Of a DNA stretch of 64,000 bases, positions 40,152 through 53,798 are shown one piece after another. Positions within the stretch are counted from its first letter, which is position 1, and the number at the start of each line of letters is the position of its first letter. Position numbers and translations under genes: made by a program. The DNA comes from Centipeda periodontii DSM 2778 (GTDB lineage Bacteria; Bacillota; Negativicutes; Selenomonadales; Selenomonadaceae): NCBI RefSeq assembly GCF_000213975.1, contig NZ_GL892076.1, positions 1,112,905 to 1,176,904 of the forward strand, given 5' to 3'. The notes beneath the pieces were generated by a model. It saw nothing but the letters and a program-made list of their open reading frames with translations, was not told the DNA's origin and searched no databases.

Positions 40152-40868
40152 TTATATATCCCAGTGCAGCTGTTCGGGGTTCGGTGTCGCACGGTCGATC
40201 TCGCGCAGGATCCATGGCGCGTTTTCGTGCGCTGCGGCAAAGGCATCTGCAAGTCCCTGCTCATATGCGGGCGGAATCTCCATCGCGTGCAGCGCCATAT
40301 GCATGTAGTCCTTTGCGATGAGGACGACGCCGCGCTCGGCGGCGAGATGTGCCTTGAAGCGGTAGCCGTAGTAGAGATACGAGTTGTGCGGCACGGCGTC
40401 CGCGAGCCCGTCAAAGGCGGCAATGCGCTCGTCCACCTCTGCCTCGGCATCCTCGGTCATGTGCAGCTTGTGCATGAGGTTCCAGCGATCTGCCCAGAGC
40501 TCGCCGCGCAGGATGTACTTGTAGAGGAAATCCGTGGACTCGGCGCACTCGATGGCAAGGTTGATGTGCTCGAGTGCCGCTTCCTGCGTCTCCTTTTCCG
40601 CAGCTTCGAGCGCACTCAGCCCCTGCATGGCATAGATCTTTTCCTCCATGTCCTGTGCAAGCTCTTCGTTCGGCTCTGCGTCGATGATACTCTGAAAAAG
40701 TGCGAGAGCATCACTGCGATATTCCTCCGCCTGTGCGAGGAAATGGGCAAGGCGTGCGCGTGCGTGCCAGTCCGCTACGCCGCCCGCAAAGAGGTCGTGG
40801 GGCGGAGCTGCCGCACCAAGACGGTCTATCACCACATGAATGAGTTCGTGAAAGCGTTCTTCTGTCAT
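40152..40868 (-). CDS. TPR-like protein of unknown function, last gene of cyd operon
   Basis: The 238-residue acidic, soluble protein is almost entirely helical, with alternating Ala/Glu/Leu patterns and a pair of repeats (EAALEHINLAIECAESTDFLYKY; later YGYRFKAHLAAERG) that suggest TPR-like units. It has no signal peptide and no catalytic motif I recognise. Its start overlaps the cydC stop by 4 bases (ATGA), so it is made together with the cytochrome bd assembly transporter. A role in bd oxidase assembly or in regulating it is possible but unproven. Confidence 0.75.
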   Translation of the reverse strand: MTEERFHELIHVVIDRLGAAAPPHDLFAGGVADWHARARLAHFLAQAEEYRSDALALFQSIIDAEPNEELAQDMEEKIYAMQGLSALEAAEKETQEAALEHINLAIECAESTDFLYKYILRGELWADRWNLMHKLHMTEDAEAEVDERIAAFDGLADAVPHNSYLYYGYRFKAHLAAERGVVLIAKDYMHMALHAMEIPPAYEQGLADAFAAAHENAPWILREIDRATPNPEQLHWDI

Positions 40869-42472
40869 AGTTCTATCACCTGTTTCATACGGTCGAGAAG
40901 GGGAAGGTCATGCGTGATGACGATGAGCGTGCCGCCGCGTGCGTCGAGTTCCGCGAGAACGGCGGCAATCAACCGCTCCCCACGCTCTGCATCAAGCCCT
41001 GCGGTCGGCTCGTCGAGAAGAAGAATCGGCGCATTGGAGGCGAGTGCAAGCGCCGTGAGGAGGCGGCTGCGCTGTCCGCCCGAGAGGCGTGCGGCATTCG
41101 CGCCGAGCTCTTCGTCGAGTCCCGCAGGAAGTGCCCGCACAACATCGGCAAGCTGCGCCGTTTCGAGCGCCTCCCACATACGTTCCGCCGTTATACCTTC
41201 GTGCAGACGTAGGAAGTTGTTGCGTATTGACGTGCTGAAGAGATAACTGCCCTGAAGCGCAGCGCCGAAGAGCACGCGCGTCGCGGTCGGAGAGAGTTCC
41301 GTATGCTTTGCTCCGCGATAGGAGAGCATCCCGCCATCGACCTCCCAGAGGCGCAGGAGGAGGCTTGCAAGCGTGGTTTTGCCTGCGCCGCTCTCACCGA
41401 TGATCGCCGTGTGCTGACCGCGCTGAATTGTGAACGAGAGTCCGTTCAGTATGGGCACGGAGGCATGATACCCGAAGGAGATGTCCTGCGCCTCAATAAG
41501 AGGTGCGTCAGGGGCGCTGTCGGGCACGGGGGAGGTAATTTCACGTAGTTCCTTCGTCGCGGGCAGAATTGTCTCTGCCGCCCGTACTGCCTCCACCGTA
41601 CCGAGACTTGCGGCGGGTAGGGGCCGATACTCGCTGAGGACTGCCTCAATAACGAGCACCCAGACGGCGTACTGGACGCCCGTGAGAGCACCGTTTGCGA
41701 CGAGCGGGGTGAGTAGGATGATCAAAAGAATCCAGACGGATACACGCAGAACGTCGAGCAGTGTGAAAAGGCGCTCGCGCTTCGTGCGTTTGCCGCTCTG
41801 TTTCTGCTGAAAATTCACTGCCGCCCGATCGAGATGATTCGTAGCATCCACGAGAGTGCCCGCCGCCGCAAGTTCCATGCGTCCATCGAGACGGTCGAGC
41901 AGTGCGTTGCGGTAGGCGGCGCTCTCCGTGCGCAAATCTGTTTCCCGCAGCAGATGGGGGAGAACGAGATGCGCGGCATACAGGAGTACGATGAGCAGTA
42001 TGCCCCACGGGCTGAGCGGCAGGAGAGCCGCGCAGGTTACGGCGGTGAGTATTCCTGCGATCAGCGGCTGCGGGACGGTGCGGAGGTAGAAGTCACGCAG
42101 TGTCTCGCAGCCCGTCAGGAGATCGTGCAGGAATTCGCCCTCACGCACGTTTCCTTCGCGCAGCGGAATCATCGCAGCCGAGCGGCGGTAGGTCGCCTGC
42201 TGCAAGCCTTCGTAACACGCGAATGCAAGCCGATGGGAGAGCAGGCGGTCGAGGTAGCGAAAGACGGCGCGCCCGATGCCGCAGGCGCGCACCGTCGTAA
42301 TCATGAGTGCGAGTGCGGAGAGGGGAGGCTGCAGGGCAGCACTTGCGATGATCCACGCCGCTGCACCGATGAGCGCAATGCCCGAGGCAGCCGCAAGTAT
42401 GCCCGCGATAAGAGCGGGCAGCGCCTTCATCGGATCAGCAATCCTGAGTAGTCGGAAGAGTGTTCTTGTCAT
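40865..42472 (-). CDS. cydC: thiol reductant ABC exporter, CydC subunit
   Basis: The 535-residue half-transporter has six membrane helices in its first 300 residues, then an ATPase with Walker A GESGAGKTT, signature LSGGQRSRL, Walker B PILLLDEPTAGLD and switch His in IVITHDLPLLD. With CydD it exports cysteine and glutathione-type thiols to the periplasm, needed to assemble haem d cytochrome bd. It overlaps cydD by 4 bases. Confidence 0.9.
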   Translation of the reverse strand: MTRTLFRLLRIADPMKALPALIAGILAAASGIALIGAAAWIIASAALQPPLSALALMITTVRACGIGRAVFRYLDRLLSHRLAFACYEGLQQATYRRSAAMIPLREGNVREGEFLHDLLTGCETLRDFYLRTVPQPLIAGILTAVTCAALLPLSPWGILLIVLLYAAHLVLPHLLRETDLRTESAAYRNALLDRLDGRMELAAAGTLVDATNHLDRAAVNFQQKQSGKRTKRERLFTLLDVLRVSVWILLIILLTPLVANGALTGVQYAVWVLVIEAVLSEYRPLPAASLGTVEAVRAAETILPATKELREITSPVPDSAPDAPLIEAQDISFGYHASVPILNGLSFTIQRGQHTAIIGESGAGKTTLASLLLRLWEVDGGMLSYRGAKHTELSPTATRVLFGAALQGSYLFSTSIRNNFLRLHEGITAERMWEALETAQLADVVRALPAGLDEELGANAARLSGGQRSRLLTALALASNAPILLLDEPTAGLDAERGERLIAAVLAELDARGGTLIVITHDLPLLDRMKQVIEL

Positions 42473-44145
42473 GCGTGCTCACCTCCCAATGTGATAACGT
42501 GATCCGCCCACGCGATGAGGGCGGGGCGGTGCGAGGTCAGAATCAGCGTGCGATGATGTGCAAATTGTGTCAGTGCCGCAATGACCTGTGCCTCCGTTTC
42601 CCCGTCCAGACCTGCCGTGATCTCGTCGAGCAGTACGATGGGGCGATTCTGAAAAAACGCGCGCGCGAGTCCGAGACGATGTCGCTCACCCGCAGAGAGC
42701 GGATGTCCGCCGGCGCCGAGCGGAGTTTCGAGTCCCTCGGGCAGGGAGCGCAGGAAGTCGCCGAGCGAAGCTGCCTCAAGTGTTGCCGTGAGGGTTTCGT
42801 TCGTGGCGTGTTTGAGCCAGAGGCTGACGTTCTCCGCAAGCGACGCCGTAAAGATATGCGGCTCCTGCGGAACGTAGGTGATGAGATTTTGCCGCGTTGC
42901 CGCAGAGAGGTGCGCAAGGTCAAATGCGCTGCCGTTTCCCGCACCGTCCGCGAGCACAATTTTTCCCTCCGTCGGTGCAGTCTGACCTGCGAGCAGGAGC
43001 AGCAGGGTAGATTTGCCGATGCCGCTCGCACCCGCAAGCACCGTGGCTTTTCCCGCAGGGAAGGAGTAATTCGTGTTCGTGAGCACGGTCTCCTCGGTCA
43101 GCGGATAGCGATAGGAGAGATGCTCCGCATGCACGGCGGGCGGCGAGAGGATCTGACTGCGTGCACCGTCCCCGGGGGAGGGGAGACCCACGTAGGGCAG
43201 GAGTGCCGCCTCCGCTGTCTTGGCATCCATCGCCGCATGAAACGCGATGCCGCCCTCGCGCAGCGGCTGATAGAAGAGCGGCGCGAGGATGAGGACAAAG
43301 AACGCCGTCTGAAACGTCATCATCCCATCGAGGAGGCGCAGACCGATGGAGACGGCAATGAGCGCAATCGAGAGTGTTGTAATCAGCTCGAGCGCGAACG
43401 CTGAGACAAAGGCAAGGCGCAGGACGGAGAGGGACGCCTCGGCGAAGCTGTGGCTCATCCGTGCAAGATGTGCGCCCTCTTCATCGACGCGGCGAAAGAT
43501 CTTGAGCGTCATCGCTGCACGCACGAGTTCGCCGAATCCGTCCGTGAGTGCCTGCATCTTGTCCCACTGCCGTTCACTCGCGCGGCGTGTCGCCTTGCCG
43601 ATGAGGAAGAGAAGGAAGGGCGCGATCGGCAGCGTGACGAGGAAGAGGAGCGCCGAGAGCGGATCCGCGATTGCCGTCACAATGAGAATGAGCGGGATGA
43701 GGACAACTCCTGCAATCATTGTGGGCAGTACCGTGTGAAAGAACGGATCGAGTGCATCGACGCGTTCGAGTATGAGCGTCAGCGCACCCGAGGAACTGCG
43801 GCCGTGCAGGAGCATTGCCTCGTGCAGGGAGGAGCGTGCGGAGAGGCGCACGTTATGCGAGAGCTGTGCCTCAATGCGTCCCTTCGGCAGGCGCAGCAGT
43901 GCCATCGAGAGAACGCACAAAAACAGCATCAGAAGATCTGATGCTGTTTCAGCAAGCCTGCCGTGTTCTATAAATACTGCATTCACAATGATGGCAGTCT
44001 CCCATGCTGCCGCGACGACGAGACCTCCGTGGAGGAACTCGATCGCCGCGCGCACGAGGATGCTGTTCCGCTCAGTGCGAAGCACAGACAGCAGAATGGA
44101 CTTCTTTTTTTCATTGTGATCAGTATGCCTGATGACCGTTGTCAT
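42469..44145 (-). CDS. cydD: thiol reductant ABC exporter, CydD subunit
   Basis: ATG 44145 is the best in-frame start I can find; it lies 26 bases inside the end of cydB and has only a weak ribosome site, which would mean coupled translation. The 558-residue half-transporter has six membrane helices, then an ATPase with Walker A GASGIGKST, signature LSAGERHRL (A for the usual G), Walker B PIVLLDEITAGLD and switch LTSHRPALI. It partners CydC. Confidence 0.88.
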   Translation of the reverse strand: MTTVIRHTDHNEKKKSILLSVLRTERNSILVRAAIEFLHGGLVVAAAWETAIIVNAVFIEHGRLAETASDLLMLFLCVLSMALLRLPKGRIEAQLSHNVRLSARSSLHEAMLLHGRSSSGALTLILERVDALDPFFHTVLPTMIAGVVLIPLILIVTAIADPLSALLFLVTLPIAPFLLFLIGKATRRASERQWDKMQALTDGFGELVRAAMTLKIFRRVDEEGAHLARMSHSFAEASLSVLRLAFVSAFALELITTLSIALIAVSIGLRLLDGMMTFQTAFFVLILAPLFYQPLREGGIAFHAAMDAKTAEAALLPYVGLPSPGDGARSQILSPPAVHAEHLSYRYPLTEETVLTNTNYSFPAGKATVLAGASGIGKSTLLLLLAGQTAPTEGKIVLADGAGNGSAFDLAHLSAATRQNLITYVPQEPHIFTASLAENVSLWLKHATNETLTATLEAASLGDFLRSLPEGLETPLGAGGHPLSAGERHRLGLARAFFQNRPIVLLDEITAGLDGETEAQVIAALTQFAHHRTLILTSHRPALIAWADHVITLGGEHA

Positions 44146-45136
44146 TCGGTGAGATGCGCTTGCGGAAGATGTAGTACGTCCAGATCTGATAGGCGAGGAC
44201 GACGGGAACGAGAATGGCCGCCGCAATCGTCATGATGGAGAGTGTGTACTCCGTCGAGGACGCATTGTAGATCGTGAGGCTGTACCCGGGATTCAGGCTC
44301 GAGACCATGAGGCGTGGGAAGAGACCGACAAAGAAGCCGATCGTTGTGCCGACAATTGCAAGACCGCCGAGCATGAATGCGGGCAGCTGTGTTCCCTTAT
44401 ACATTGCGCCAAGCGCTGCGACGAATGCCGCCGCCGAGAAGACAAGAGCGCCGGCAGCGAGCGGGCTCGCATAGAGATCCGTCTCAACATAGGTGAGGAT
44501 CATGCAGAGTACGTAGAGGAGCGCTGCGAGGACGCCGAACTTCAAACCGAGCACACGGGCGCGGTCGAGGAGATAGCGATCCGTGAGACGCAGGCGCAGG
44601 AACGCCGCACCGTGGAAGGCAAAGACCGTGAGGAAGGTTACGCCGCCGACCACCGTATAGGGGGTCAGAAGATCGAAGAAGTTGCCCTGATAGACCATGT
44701 TCGAGCCAATGGGCAGCCCCGCGATCAGATTCGTGACGGCAACGCCCCAGAGGAATGCAGGGACAATGCTGCCGAACGCAATCGCGTACGACCAGCGGCG
44801 CTGCCACTCTGCATCCTCACGCTGATGGCGGAACTCGAATGCGACACCGCGCAGGATGAGAGCGACGAGCATGAGGAAGAGTGCGATGTAGAAGGTGCTG
44901 AACATCGTCGCATAGACATGCGGAAACGCCGCAAAGGTAGCGCCGCCCGCCGTAATCATCCAGACCTCATTGCCGTCCCAGACGGGGCCAATCGTGCGGA
45001 TGACCTGAGAGCGGTCGCTCTCTTTGTCCGAAAGGAGTGTGAGCAGTGTGCCGACGCCGTAGTCAAATCCCTCGAGAAAGAAGAATCCCGTGAAGAGGAC
45101 GACGATGAGCACGAACCAGAGAATATTGTAGTCCAT
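44120..45136 (-). CDS. cydB: cytochrome bd quinol oxidase subunit II
   Basis: The 338-residue protein has about eight membrane helices, with the family opening FVLIVVLFTGFFFLEGFDYGVG and GPVWDGNEVWMITAGGATFAAFP. It forms the oxidase with CydA and lets the cell reduce oxygen at very low concentrations while protecting anaerobic enzymes. It starts 2 bases after cydA. Confidence 0.95.
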   Translation of the reverse strand: MDYNILWFVLIVVLFTGFFFLEGFDYGVGTLLTLLSDKESDRSQVIRTIGPVWDGNEVWMITAGGATFAAFPHVYATMFSTFYIALFLMLVALILRGVAFEFRHQREDAEWQRRWSYAIAFGSIVPAFLWGVAVTNLIAGLPIGSNMVYQGNFFDLLTPYTVVGGVTFLTVFAFHGAAFLRLRLTDRYLLDRARVLGLKFGVLAALLYVLCMILTYVETDLYASPLAAGALVFSAAAFVAALGAMYKGTQLPAFMLGGLAIVGTTIGFFVGLFPRLMVSSLNPGYSLTIYNASSTEYTLSIMTIAAAILVPVVLAYQIWTYYIFRKRISPNDNGHQAY

Positions 45137-45138
45137 TC

Positions 45139-46509
45139 TTACTTCCCTCCTTCGATGGCAGGGGTGATCTGCGTGCGGCGGATGAAGCGGAAGGCGAGAT
45201 AGAGCGCCGTGATCAGGAGCAGCAGGTAGAGCACCGTGAACCCGATCATTGAAATCATGATCTCAGCAGAGGTGAGATTCGGCGAAACACCGTCCACCGT
45301 CTTTTGGAGTCCGACGACGAGCCATGGCTGACGCCCCATCTCCGCGACAATCCAGCCGCAGGAGTTTGCGATAAAGGGAACGACCACGAGCCACGGGAGC
45401 GCGTAGAGCAGTTTTTTTGCCGAGAACAGCTTGTCTTTTTTTGCGAGGTAGAACACCACGAGCGAAACGAGCACCATGAAGAAGCCGGAGCCAACCATCG
45501 CGCGGAACGAGTAGAAGAGCATGGTTACATGCGGACGATAGTCGCCGGGACCGTGCTTTTCAACCGCCTCTTTTTGGAGATCGTTGATACCGCGCACCTC
45601 GCCCTTGATATTATCGTGCACCATGATCGTGAACATGTAGGGGATGGTGATCTCGAAGTCATTGTGTCCCTTCTCCATGTTCGGGTAGGCAACGACGGCA
45701 AACGGCGCGGGATCCTCCGTCTCCCAAAGCGCCTCCATCGCCGCGAGCTTCATCGGGCTTGCCTGTGCGAGGTACTGCGTGTGGAAATGCCCGCTCAGAA
45801 TGACGCCGACGACGCCGACCACCGTGTAGACCGCGCCCGCCTTGATCGCCTGCGTAAAGGCGTAGCGCGACTCCGTATCGTGGAGCAGCTTCCATGCCGA
45901 AACCGCCATGACGACGAAGCCCGCAGTTGTGATGCCTGCGAACAGCGTGTGGGACTGCTCGCCGAGGATGTAGTGATTTGTTACGAGCTCAAAGAAACTT
46001 GCCATCTCCGCGCGGCCGTTCGCAAGCGTATAGCCGACGGGATGCTGCATGAACGAGTTTGCGACGAGAATCCAGAACGCCGACAGATTACTGCCGATTG
46101 CGACGAGCCAGATACAGGCACAGTGCGCTTTTTCCGACAGCTTATCCCAGCCGAACATCCAGATGCCGAGGAAGGTCGACTCGAGGAAGAACGCCGTGAG
46201 CGCTTCGAGTGCAAGCGGCGCGCCGAAGATGTCGCCCATGAAGCGCGCGTACTCCGACCAGTTCATGCCGAACTGGAACTCCTGCACCAGACCGGTGACG
46301 ACACCCATCGCGAAATTGATGAGAAAGAGCGTGCCAAAGAAATGCAGCAGCTTTCGGCAGGTCTTCTTCCATTCCGGCTTCTTCGTCCGCACGTAGCACG
46401 TCTCGAGCATGGCGACGAAGATCGCCATGCCGAGGGTGACGGGGACGAAGAGAAAGTGATAGATGGTTGTGATTGCAAACTGCCATCGTGACAGCAGCAC
46501 TTCTTCCAT
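45139..46509 (-). CDS. cydA: cytochrome bd quinol oxidase subunit I
   Basis: ATG 46509 follows GGAGGGG at 7 bases; a TTG two codons earlier is in frame but less likely. The 456-residue protein has the axial haem His in SRWQFAITTIYHFLFVPVT, another in a helix near 180, and the GRQPW motif in EMGRQPWLV. The quinol loop is the short form. First gene of cydABDC plus the 40152 gene. Confidence 0.95.
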   Translation of the reverse strand: MEEVLLSRWQFAITTIYHFLFVPVTLGMAIFVAMLETCYVRTKKPEWKKTCRKLLHFFGTLFLINFAMGVVTGLVQEFQFGMNWSEYARFMGDIFGAPLALEALTAFFLESTFLGIWMFGWDKLSEKAHCACIWLVAIGSNLSAFWILVANSFMQHPVGYTLANGRAEMASFFELVTNHYILGEQSHTLFAGITTAGFVVMAVSAWKLLHDTESRYAFTQAIKAGAVYTVVGVVGVILSGHFHTQYLAQASPMKLAAMEALWETEDPAPFAVVAYPNMEKGHNDFEITIPYMFTIMVHDNIKGEVRGINDLQKEAVEKHGPGDYRPHVTMLFYSFRAMVGSGFFMVLVSLVVFYLAKKDKLFSAKKLLYALPWLVVVPFIANSCGWIVAEMGRQPWLVVGLQKTVDGVSPNLTSAEIMISMIGFTVLYLLLLITALYLAFRFIRRTQITPAIEGGK

Positions 46510-46597
46510 TTCCAAACCCCTCCTAAAAAATAAAACCCTATGATAATATCACCGTCTTTTGTCACAAGAACTGCAACAAAATCCCTTGATTCGGTGA

Positions 46598-46671: not shown

Positions 46672-48030
46672 TCATTCTCGAAGAGCGTTCACAATGAGCA
46701 AAATGACGAGCACAATAAGAGCGCCCCCGACGAATGGATAGGGCATCAGAGCGAGGTCAAAGGCTATGAAGATTCCTGCGGCAGCCGCTGTGAAGAGGAG
46801 AAGAAAGAGGATACTGAGCCATGCGTTCTGCTTCGCGCGCACACGCGCTGCGTTGCTCGTATCCCAGAGCGTGACGAGACTCGGCAATCCCTGCGCGTCG
46901 AGGGTGATGTCCGGCGTGAAGTTTGTCGAACGCCCTTGATTGCGCAGCGCCTGTGCCTCGAAGTAGGCGGCGTCCTCGGGGGACATCAACGGTTCAAGCT
47001 CCTGTGACGATTGCTCCCCGTCGGGTCCACGCAGGAGTTCTTCGTGCAGCGGATCGTGGGGCTGCTCTTCCATTTCGACGGCGGGGGGCTTATCGAGTGA
47101 GGAGGGGCAGCCGATGCTAATGTCCGCCGCACGCATTGCAGGCTGATCTGCCATCGGATTACCGACCATCGCGATGACGGAGCCGTGCGATTGGAGGAGG
47201 CGAATTTCGCGTGCTTTGTCTGCGCCCGTCAGGTCGGAACGCACTTCGGAGATGTGGAGTTCCTTGCCCGTCGCGTTCGCGAGGCGCTTCGTTTCACCCG
47301 TGAGGAGGACAAAACGAAGACCTCGTTCTTTGAGTGCTTGCAGTGCATGACGTACGTCGGCACGCACATCATCGCGAACTGCGATGATGCCGCGCGCGTA
47401 TTTGCTCGAGCTCACGAAGAGCGGCGTCTGTCCGCTCGTTGCAAGCTGGTCGGCGCGCGTGAGGAGTGCCGCGCTGATCTCGATGTTCTCCTCCTGCAGC
47501 CATTCCTTCTTGCCGACGCGTACGGGTGTGCGTGCAATCAGTGCCTCGACGCCGAAGCTCTCGGTCTCGTGCGCGGCGGAGTGACGCTGGAGATGCAGAC
47601 CGCGCTGGACAGCAGTGTCATAGAGCGCGTGGGCGTAGGGATGCGTTGCCTCACGCTCGGCACTCGCGGCAAGTGCGAGCAGCGATCCCTGTGTCATGCC
47701 TTCGGGCACGAGGGCAGAGATGAAGATGTTGCCCTCCGTTAGTGTGCCGTTGCGGTTGAATGCAATCGTGTCGACATGCAGCAGCTCGGTCAGCGCCCCC
47801 ATGCGGCTGCATGTGACGCCGGAGTCGCGCAGGCGTCGCTTAATCCGCAGGGCGATGAACCATCGCGATACGATAAAGGGCAGCGGCGAGGCCGCAAGAA
47901 ATACGCCGAGGAAGATCTCCGATGCAGCTTCAACGGAAATATCGCCTGTGATATACCAATAGCCTGCAGCGCACGCCGCAAGCACAACGCTTGCGATGAA
48001 ATGGAAGAATGTGGAGAAAAATTTCTTCAA
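46672..48030 (-). CDS. half-length P1B-type (heavy-metal) P-type ATPase pseudoenzyme
   Basis: The intact 452-residue frame matches the C-terminal half of a metal-transporting P-type ATPase: two N-terminal helices, a P/N-domain (residues about 80-300), an acidic Pro-rich linker, and two C-terminal helices. The metal-site CPC of the second helix is SPL (AASPLPF). The phosphorylated Asp motif DKTGT is NRNGT (47743-47757), and the hinge GDGxNDxPAL is GNPMADQPAM. The N-domain HP motif is kept (ATHPYAHAL), as is an LTGETKRLA region. The actuator domain with TGE and the first helices are missing. It cannot form the aspartyl phosphate and probably does not pump. It may be a regulatory or scaffolding protein, or a gene decaying while still open. 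Confidence 0.8.
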   Translation of the reverse strand: MKKFFSTFFHFIASVVLAACAAGYWYITGDISVEAASEIFLGVFLAASPLPFIVSRWFIALRIKRRLRDSGVTCSRMGALTELLHVDTIAFNRNGTLTEGNIFISALVPEGMTQGSLLALAASAEREATHPYAHALYDTAVQRGLHLQRHSAAHETESFGVEALIARTPVRVGKKEWLQEENIEISAALLTRADQLATSGQTPLFVSSSKYARGIIAVRDDVRADVRHALQALKERGLRFVLLTGETKRLANATGKELHISEVRSDLTGADKAREIRLLQSHGSVIAMVGNPMADQPAMRAADISIGCPSSLDKPPAVEMEEQPHDPLHEELLRGPDGEQSSQELEPLMSPEDAAYFEAQALRNQGRSTNFTPDITLDAQGLPSLVTLWDTSNAARVRAKQNAWLSILFLLLFTAAAAGIFIAFDLALMPYPFVGGALIVLVILLIVNALRE

Positions 48031-48067: not shown

Positions 48068-48096
48068 ATTATAGCACAGGCAGAGGGCTGTGACAA
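48068..48096 (-). promoter_or_regulatory. promoter of the P-type ATPase-like gene
   Basis: Minus strand: TTGTCA (48096-48091), 17-base spacer, TATAAT (48073-48068). It supports the view that the ORF is expressed. Confidence 0.75.
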
Positions 48097-50953: not shown

Positions 50954-52858
50954 GTGAGTATAAACATGATAAATACAGAACAGGAAAAGGTGCTCCGCCT
51001 GATGGCGGAGAAGTATCCGACGAAGGAAATTGTCTATGAGAAGATTGTCTATCTGAAGTCGCAGCTCATGTTGCCGAAGGGCACGGAGCACTTCATGAGC
51101 GATCTGCACGGCGCGTATGATTCGTTCTTTCACATTCTCAACAACTGTTCGGGCGTCATCAAGGAGAAGGTGGATTACTGTTTCGGCGAGCGCATGACAG
51201 AGGAGGACAAAGCGGAGTTCTGCACGCTCATTTACTATCCGCGCGAAAAGGTGGAGCAGCAGACGGCGGCGGGCAAGGCGACGGCAATCTGGTACCAGCA
51301 GACCATTGCCAACCTGCTCGAGCTCACGAAGCTCATGAGCTGGAAACTCCCCGCGAGCAAGATGCGCAGCTACATCCCGAAGCGCTACGAATCCGTCATT
51401 GTGGAGCTCTTGAACACACATCCAAAGTTGGATGAGGCACAGCTCTACTACTATAAACAACTGATCGAAACGATTGTGGAGATTGGCGGCGGCGCGGACT
51501 ACATCGAGGCGTTCAGCATCCTCATCAAGCGTCTCGCGGTCGAACGCATCCATATCGTCGGCGACTTCTACGACCGCGGCGACCGCCCCGACGGGATCCT
51601 CGACCTTCTCATGGAGCATCCGTCTGTCGATATCCAGTGGGGCAACCACGATGTGCTCTGGATGGGGGCGGCACTCGGGAGCGAGGTCTGCATTGCAGCG
51701 GTCATCCGCAACTCGCTGCGCTATCGCAATACGGACGTACTCGAGCGCGGTTACGGCATCAGCCTGCGTCCGCTCTCAACCTTCGCCTCGCGCATCTACC
51801 CTGACGAGAATCCAATCAAGGCGGCAGAGCGCGCCATCACAATGATGATGTTCAAGCTTGAGGGGGCGCTTATCAAGCGCAACACGGACTTTCAGATGGA
51901 GGATCGCCTGCTCCTCGACAAGATTGACTTCAGCTCGTCCTATGTCACGCTTGGCAGTGGGCGGCGCGTGGAGCTTGAGAGCGCGTATTTCCCAACGATT
52001 GACGGCAGTGCGAACTGCTACGAACTCACGGAGGAGGAGCGGCACATCATCGACGATCTGCGCTCCTACTTCCTTGAGAGCAAGGCGCTGCAGCGCCATG
52101 TAGACTATCTCTACGAGCGCGGCAGCATGTATCTGTGTTGCAACGGCAATCTGCTCTTTCACGCCTGCGTTCCGATGGACGAGGCGGGGAATTTTCGGAC
52201 GATTACATACAAAGGAAAAGAGTATCGTGGGCGGGCGTGGCTGGATTTCTGCGAGGAGAAGGCGCGCGAGGCGTGGCTTGAGCATACACGGGAGGGACTG
52301 GACTTTATGTACTTCCTCTGGTGCGGACTGCTCGCGCCGACCTCGGGCCGCTCGTTCACGACGTTTGAGCGTTCCTTTATCGCGGATGAGTCGACGTGGG
52401 AGGAACCGTCCGACCCATATTTCCGTCTTGTGAACGATGAGGCGATCTGTGAAAAGATCCTTGCGGAGTTCGGACTGGATCCGAAGCACGGGCACATCAT
52501 CAACGGGCATGTTCCCGTCAAGGTAAAAAAGGGAGAGAGCCCCCTGCGCGCCAGCGGGCGCGCACTCGTCATCGACGGTGGATTTGCGGCACCGTTTCGC
52601 GCGAAGACCGGTATCTCCGGCTACACACTCATCTACAACTCGCGCGGGCTGCGTCTTCTACAGCATCAGGCGGTCGCCAATGTGCGCGAGGCACTGCGCG
52701 AGAACCGCGACATCGAGTCCGTCTCGCAGACGGTCGAGCTGCAGGCGCGCAGTTCCCTCGTGCGCGATACCGACCGCGGCGCGGTGATCGCGGACGAGAT
52801 TGCTGACCTGCACGCACTCCTACGCGCGTATCAGACAGGGCATATCAAGCCGCAGTAA
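50954..52858 (+). CDS. fbp: fructose-1,6-bisphosphatase, class III
   Basis: The enzyme hydrolyses fructose 1,6-bisphosphate in gluconeogenesis. The 634-residue protein is the Firmicutes-specific class III form, unrelated to classes I and II. Metallophosphatase residues appear in MSDLHGAYDSFFHIL, VGDFYDRGDRPDGIL, WGNHDVLWMGAA and INGHVPVK. The GTG at 50954 has AGGAGG 7 bases upstream; an ATG four codons later is the alternative. Confidence 0.93.
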   Translation: MSINMINTEQEKVLRLMAEKYPTKEIVYEKIVYLKSQLMLPKGTEHFMSDLHGAYDSFFHILNNCSGVIKEKVDYCFGERMTEEDKAEFCTLIYYPREKVEQQTAAGKATAIWYQQTIANLLELTKLMSWKLPASKMRSYIPKRYESVIVELLNTHPKLDEAQLYYYKQLIETIVEIGGGADYIEAFSILIKRLAVERIHIVGDFYDRGDRPDGILDLLMEHPSVDIQWGNHDVLWMGAALGSEVCIAAVIRNSLRYRNTDVLERGYGISLRPLSTFASRIYPDENPIKAAERAITMMMFKLEGALIKRNTDFQMEDRLLLDKIDFSSSYVTLGSGRRVELESAYFPTIDGSANCYELTEEERHIIDDLRSYFLESKALQRHVDYLYERGSMYLCCNGNLLFHACVPMDEAGNFRTITYKGKEYRGRAWLDFCEEKAREAWLEHTREGLDFMYFLWCGLLAPTSGRSFTTFERSFIADESTWEEPSDPYFRLVNDEAICEKILAEFGLDPKHGHIINGHVPVKVKKGESPLRASGRALVIDGGFAAPFRAKTGISGYTLIYNSRGLRLLQHQAVANVREALRENRDIESVSQTVELQARSSLVRDTDRGAVIADEIADLHALLRAYQTGHIKPQ

Positions 52859-52882
52859 ATTGTGTGGAAAAACTGCTTCATC

Positions 52883-52911
52883 TTGCGATTGTGTGCGGAA
52901 TACGCTAAAAT
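52883..52911 (+). promoter_or_regulatory. promoter of Rpn-family gene 2
   Basis: TTGCGA at 52883-52888, 17-base spacer, TAAAAT at 52906-52911, 20 bases before the ATG. Confidence 0.5.
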
Positions 52912-52931
52912 ACATCATAGGGGGGGATTCG

Positions 52932-53798
52932 ATGACATTCAATATGGAGGAAGCACGCCGTGAGAGGTACAAGGAAATCATTCAGAGTTTTACCTTGCTC
53001 GATGATGTCTTTATGACGGCGGTGTTTCAGGACAGTCTCCCCTGTGTTGATCTGGTCTTGCAGATCATCTTAGATCGCCCGAATCTTCGTGCAACGAGCG
53101 TTGTCACGCAGGATACACTGAAGAATCTGCATGGGCATGATGTCCGGCTCGATATTCACGCATTTGCGGACGGGCAGGAGTTCAACATCGAGATTCAACG
53201 TGCGAGAAAGGGAGCGGCACCGCGCAGAGCGCGCTATCATAGCAGCATTATGGACGCGAATGCATTGCCCGAGGGGGCTGATTACGAGAAGCTGCCGGAG
53301 AGTTATGTTATCTTCATCACAGAGACCGATGTACTCGGGAAAGGGAAGCCACTCTACGTGATTGAGCGGACGATAAAGGGTGATGGAGATTTCTTTGATG
53401 ACGGCACGCATATCGTCTATGTGAACAGTTCAATTGTGGATACGGAAACACCGCTCGGCAAGCTGATGCACGATTTTCGATGCGTGCAGCCCGATAAGAT
53501 GTACTATGGCGTTCTCGCGGAGCGAGCGGGAGCATTTAAGAAGACCGAGGAAGGAGTAATGGCTATGAGCTCGAAGTGGGAACAGTTCGTTCAGGAAATT
53601 CGTGAAGAGGCGATGGAACGTGGCATGGAGCGTGGCATGGAGCGTGGCATGGAGCGTGGCATGGAGCGCGGCGCAGAGAACGCATATCTTTCTTCGATCC
53701 GAGCGATAATGGAAAAATTGTCGGTTACGGCAGAGAAGGCAATGGATGTGCTTGCAATTCCTCAATCCGAGTGGGGACGGTATAAAGCAATGCTTTGA
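52932..53798 (+). CDS. Rpn-family PD-(D/E)XK nuclease / putative transposase
   Basis: ATG 52932 is chosen, since the longer frame begins inside fbp; GGGGGGA precedes it. The 288-residue protein has a PD-(D/E)XK core: RLDIHAFADGQEFNIEIQR provides the D and ExQ residues, preceded by FMTAVFQDS. It belongs to the same broad Rpn/transposase-like group as the gene at 17731, though the two are not close in sequence. Residues 228-247 are five MERG-type repeats coded by a 12-bp tandem DNA repeat, before a short helical C-terminus. This mirrors the RREG repeat of the first gene at the same position in the fold. The repeat element copy C follows the stop. Confidence 0.8.
   Translation: MTFNMEEARRERYKEIIQSFTLLDDVFMTAVFQDSLPCVDLVLQIILDRPNLRATSVVTQDTLKNLHGHDVRLDIHAFADGQEFNIEIQRARKGAAPRRARYHSSIMDANALPEGADYEKLPESYVIFITETDVLGKGKPLYVIERTIKGDGDFFDDGTHIVYVNSSIVDTETPLGKLMHDFRCVQPDKMYYGVLAERAGAFKKTEEGVMAMSSKWEQFVQEIREEAMERGMERGMERGMERGMERGAENAYLSSIRAIMEKLSVTAEKAMDVLAIPQSEWGRYKAML
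53613..53672 (+). repeat. 12-bp coding tandem repeat, 5 units
   Basis: Five units of ATGGAGCGTGGC (first with A for G, last with C for T) encode MERG. The unit length keeps the frame if copies are gained or lost. Confidence 0.9.

Follow-up and report, generated by a model that had tools for sequence, protein, structure and literature searches.

We found that the unbroken open reading frame (ORF) at positions 46672–48030 on the minus strand of the window, the 64,000-nucleotide stretch of Centipeda periodontii DSM 2778 DNA analysed here, encodes a pseudo-P1B-ATPase (psATP), and we give a probability of about 0.6 to the reading that this protein is kept as a membrane-anchored, nucleotide-responsive adaptor or sensor with a new, non-enzymatic role. 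At the level of sequence, the data establish dead catalytic motifs, one common origin from an active CopA, retention among relatives, purifying selection centred on the nucleotide-binding (N) domain and the keeping of ATP-pocket residues. A broader proposal, which we hold tentatively and at slightly less than even odds, is that psATP represents a class of bacterial pseudo-P-type ATPases specific to its family. In this class, a copper pump would have shed its pumping half and its phosphorylation site, and its N domain, selected more strongly than that of the working pump, would have turned into a nucleotide-dependent module that signals or acts as an adaptor at the membrane.

The ORF comprises 452 residues with a TTG start and matches the latter half of a P1B ATPase (CopA); its nearest solved sequences are CopA proteins. 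The only Pfam match is the HAD domain PF00702 (67.5 bits against a gathering cut-off of 26.4), which places psATP in the HAD-like hydrolase superfamily, although the catalytic Asp is absent. The NCBIfam model for heavy-metal P-type ATPases, TIGR01525, is matched in part, over model positions 176–475 of 560 and at 178 bits, below its cut-off of 346. The actuator domain carrying TGE (PF00122) has no Pfam match in psATP, as the sequence-only reading had proposed, and the HMA domain is likewise missing. The same reading had described three changed motifs in an intact ORF, all of which are borne out by alignment columns: SPL replaces the CPC metal site (residues 48–50, 47881–47889), NRNGT replaces DKTGT and leaves no phosphorylatable Asp (residues 92–96, 47743–47757), and GNPMAD replaces GDGxND (residues 290–295, 47146–47163). 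None of the defining features of a P1B pump is therefore present, be it the Asp of DKTGT, CPC or CPx, the TGE actuator domain or GDGxND. The metal-sensing role suggested earlier is not upheld, as both CPC cysteines are gone, three Cys are left in the whole protein and there is no positive evidence for it.

An AlphaFold model of psATP (pLDDT 83.5, pTM 0.71) is confident outside the linker. Two membrane helices, corresponding to the last two before the P domain in pumps, occupy residues 1–69 (47824–48030), and the second is kinked at P49, the only residue of the CPC site to survive, which is retained in 83 of 86 sequences. The N domain follows at residues 109–219 (47374–47706), and residues 373–452 (46675–46914) form the C-terminal region, which holds the final pair of membrane helices; these features, like the ORF, lie on the minus strand. 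Between the two, an acidic linker (residues 314–372, 46915–47091) is mostly modelled with low confidence. It was correctly recognized from the letters as an addition of about 65 aa (14 D/E against 4 K/R), but its length is genus-specific, ranging from 3 to 63 aa in other genera and standing at 11 aa in active CopA, and it is the least constrained part of the gene. The ORF had also been called promoter-driven. What stands of this is a promoter-like site on the same strand, TTGTCA-17-TATAAT with a TG before the −10 element (extended −10), at 48068–48096 and 38–66 bp upstream of the start, resting on an 11/12 consensus match only; the region holds four such promoter-like sites compared with 0.8 in shuffled sequences.

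The host genus is the oral Selenomonas group, with orthologues in S. infelix, S. noxia, S. flueggei and others. psATP is free of stops in all 14 genus genomes, each from a different species, and the orthologues share 72–86% identity. NRNGT is present in 12 of the 13 aligned genus sequences (NRSGT in the other), and some of its codons have changed silently. SPL is likewise found in 12 of the 13, the exception being SPI. The conservation of motifs that had been looked for thus holds within the genus for NRNGT and fails for GNPMAD, which no other genome has; most of the genus reads GDPxxDQ here. When 189 Selenomonadaceae genomes were searched with a profile, the search recovered half-length intact ORFs, mostly of 380–455 aa, in many genera, along with longer degenerate forms; dead forms occur in most sampled genera of this family, whose members are anaerobes of the mouth, gut and rumen. 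No half-length form was found outside the family in a 300-genome sample of the class. These results exclude a recent pseudogene confined to one strain. Some genera of the family (g8 and g10) have no copy at the thresholds used, and the pseudo-ATPase relative carries one in-frame stop in three genomes (L119 in G191, L125 in G061, and G153:C278:9141-10301), which may be real losses or assembly errors. Together, the missing copies and the stops indicate that the role of psATP is not essential everywhere.

When the tree is computed with the motif columns removed, 41 pseudo forms make up one clade (100/99), which is nested with active CopAs (98/100) and lies apart from a second CopA clade (95/86); 30 half-length rows (380–485 aa) form a subclade within it (95/94). 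The persistence of the clade after this rebuild excludes clustering driven by the motifs themselves. Synteny agrees. In genus g24 (G036 and G086), a full CopA with HMA, TGE, CPC, DKTGT and GDGIND stands between ispE and cydABDC, an active CopA adjoins ispE in G027, and a degenerate form occupies the place between ispE and cydABDC in dozens of other genomes. The tree, the synteny and the motif table show that psATP descends from an active enzyme and has lost its catalytic residues.

This decay appears graded. The actuator-domain score falls from 194 bits in the active form to 100 in L054, 21 in L053 and 19 in L055, and is absent from the half forms. L054 keeps a recognizable actuator domain in which TGE has become TGK, and the phosphorylated Asp, lost in 85 of the 86 pseudo sequences, is left solely in L053 (DRSGT). 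The fading actuator domain and the Asp of L053 point to a stepwise descent from an active CopA. The sequence-only reading had all catalytic sites changing simultaneously, which these intermediates contradict; the changes were probably not simultaneous, with intermediate states surviving in relatives. L054 and L153, both from genus g6, are long relatives with most of the actuator domain left and the TGE-to-TGK change, and can be regarded as decay intermediates.

The whole gene has a dN/dS of 0.131 (0.110–0.152) among 13 genus sequences, with pooled ratios and ranges from a codon bootstrap; dS is near saturation in many pairs and the ratios are approximate. This value, which answers the earlier call for a dN/dS well below 1, is unevenly distributed along the protein. 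The N domain stands at 0.027 (0.015–0.044), followed by the first helices (0.109), the P domain (0.115 and 0.124), the C-terminal region (0.186) and the linker (0.242). In the working CopA of the host genus, which has all motifs in the 13 of 13 genomes read, the N domain is instead the least constrained of the parts compared, at 0.214 (0.156–0.287), so the pattern of constraint is reversed in psATP. Beyond the host genus, the agreement is partial: in the two g16 groups and g50 no other part is as constrained as the N domain, in g12 the N domain leads by a small margin only, and g3 does not show the pattern. The strong constraint is clearest in the host genus and g16. An overlapping or antisense gene was considered as the cause of the N-domain conservation and ruled out, since stops interrupt the antisense frame in 9 of the 13 genus sequences and the synonymous sites of the N domain vary freely. 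The inactive form is under purifying selection, and the presence of the gene in all genus species and in most of the family further supports the earlier suggestion of selection for a non-enzymatic role.

Many ATP-pocket residues persist in the pseudo sequences. The Glu and His that we take to be equivalent to E457 and H462 of CopA, by numbering placed on the alignment with CopA, are kept in 79 and 76 of 86 sequences, respectively. Of the GxG glycines, the first is kept in 64 and the second in all 86. E155 of psATP (47566–47568) is typical of the pseudo-ATPase clade, where its equivalent occurs in 78 of 86 sequences, and this position is mostly Ala in active CopAs. The best structural matches of the model are the P/N domains of CopA with AMPPCP or ADP (Z 28.6–28.8); the comparison was also run with Foldseek. 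By the fold of the model, psATP has the P1B N domain with its Glu, His and second Gly, the first Gly being Ser in the host genus, where the Glu directly before the His of SEHP is also mostly Thr. The glycines G1099 and G1101 of ATP7B, which match those of GxG, are described as near ATP (PMC3203118). The Ser in GxG and the Thr before the SEHP His suggest that ATP binding in the host genus may be weak or lost, in which case the constraint on the N domain may come from protein contacts only; part of the residue retention may also reflect shared ancestry and fold stability.

We propose that a former CopA copper pump would have been reduced to its second half, consisting of two membrane helices, the P and N domains and two further membrane helices. 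Phosphorylation and transport would have been lost early in Selenomonadaceae, once copper export had passed to another CopA. Judging from the pocket residues, the N domain would probably still bind ATP or ADP, next to a dead P domain that would be beyond phosphorylation. Nucleotide-dependent closure of N and P, or else an invariant surface of the N domain, could then engage a membrane partner, and partner binding would be followed by a signalling step.

The neighbourhood suggests another role, in which psATP would be an accessory or assembly factor of cytochrome bd that works at the membrane alongside CydDC or CydAB. Downstream of psATP, all on the minus strand, lie cydA (45139–46515, 156 bp away), cydB (44120–45136, TIGR00203), cydD (42469–44226, TIGR02857) and cydC (40865–42472, TIGR02868, just under its cut-off), and the cluster ends with TPRx (40152–40868), a 238-aa protein with no Pfam or NCBIfam match. 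The common gene order is prs-glmU-GntR-ispE, then, divergently, psATP-cydA-cydB-cydD-cydC, often with TPRx. The linkage to cydABDC anticipated in the sequence-only reading is real and spans many genera: psATP lies 4–640 bp upstream of cydA on the same strand in the host genus, in most of the loci fetched from g3, g4, g14, g17, g19 and g48 and in part of g16, and in the host genus the psATP-cyd block is intact even though it sits away from the ispE site. However, psATP is kept without a CydA match in seven genomes that are 94–100% complete (G190, G033, G017, G025, G023, G019 and G166), and g12 and part of g16 carry psATP and cyd far apart. These CydA-less genomes and unlinked copies indicate that assembly of cytochrome bd, as first suggested, is not the sole function and weaken any role strictly tied to this oxidase. 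Moreover, the active CopA of g24 already stands beside cydABDC, so the linkage may be inherited. On balance, we consider the cytochrome bd role unlikely, while ranking it first among the alternatives to the adaptor.

No partner gene is constant across all psATP loci. TPRx is found in 101 of the 189 family genomes, often near cydC, and directly follows psATP in L049, L059 and L060. A role tied to TPRx was rejected, given that TPRx is restricted to these 101 genomes and has no match in any g12 genome, where psATP is kept. Elsewhere in the window, an ORF at 52800–53798 on the plus strand contains consecutive MERG repeats close to its end and appears by eye to encode an Rpn/PD-(D/E)XK-type transposase-associated protein.

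Marginally less probable than the cytochrome bd role is that psATP regulates the remaining working CopA, through a hetero-oligomer or competition for a copper chaperone. Both share descent from a copper pump, and a second, active CopA is present in 10 of 10 tested genomes with a dead form, while no other CopA occurs in the six tested genomes with an active form of this lineage (G036, G086, G021, G152, G027 and G035). This co-occurrence would be equally expected if the second CopA had merely relieved the first of its job, and psATP, lacking both HMA and CPC, shows no linkage with the second copA at the loci that were read. L045, L050, L057, L133 and L156 are active CopAs of the psATP lineage, from genomes without a second CopA.

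It is very improbable that psATP retains other chemistry, such as HAD-type hydrolysis through a substitute nucleophile. The PF00702 score exceeds its cut-off and the Thr of HAD motif II and the Lys of motif III are each present in 76 of 86 pseudo sequences, but lineages differ in the residue at the nucleophile position (N, S, A, P, G or T), so no common chemistry has been kept. Least credible of all is a decaying pseudogene left open by chance: all transport motifs are lost, lengths vary among genera and a few genomes have one in-frame stop, yet the ORF is open throughout the genus and across most genomes of the family, synonymous divergence between genus members approaches saturation, and the low dN/dS of the gene and of its N domain is hardly compatible with neglect.

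Pseudoenzymes are familiar among kinases and other enzyme classes. A conserved family of dead P-type ATPases is described neither in Pfam and NCBIfam nor in the open-access literature searched, in line with the sequence-only reading, which knew of no such family; this is weak evidence of absence. Within a single bacterial family, the path runs from an active CopA at the locus, through longer dead forms with an actuator remnant, to the bare half. psATP offers a natural case for studying the N domain of P-type ATPases free of transport, and in these bacteria of the mouth, gut and rumen an annotation as "copper-translocating P-type ATPase" can be wrong.

Among known systems, CopA of Archaeoglobus fulgidus (P/N domains, PDB 3A1C–3A1E; full length, 7R0G) has the P/N and flanking-helix fold in common with psATP (Z 28.8 and 25.0, respectively), and the ATP-pocket residues of its N domain are largely kept. 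Unlike CopA, psATP lacks the actuator domain, the first membrane helices, HMA, CPC, the phosphorylated Asp and GDGxND. The same kind of truncation is seen in the pineal night-specific splice form of ATP7B, PINA, which has neither the metal-binding domains nor the first four membrane helices (PMC3750203). PINA arises from an active pump by splicing and is itself reported to retain weak copper transport (PMC3750203), whereas psATP is a separate bacterial gene that has lost all catalytic sites. The P4-ATPase domain of Plasmodium guanylyl cyclase alpha provides a P-type ATPase fold with a regulatory role (PMC7858053), as we propose for psATP. In contrast to psATP, that domain is eukaryotic, of type P4 and fused to a cyclase, and its catalytic Asp is kept and apparently needed (PMC7858053).
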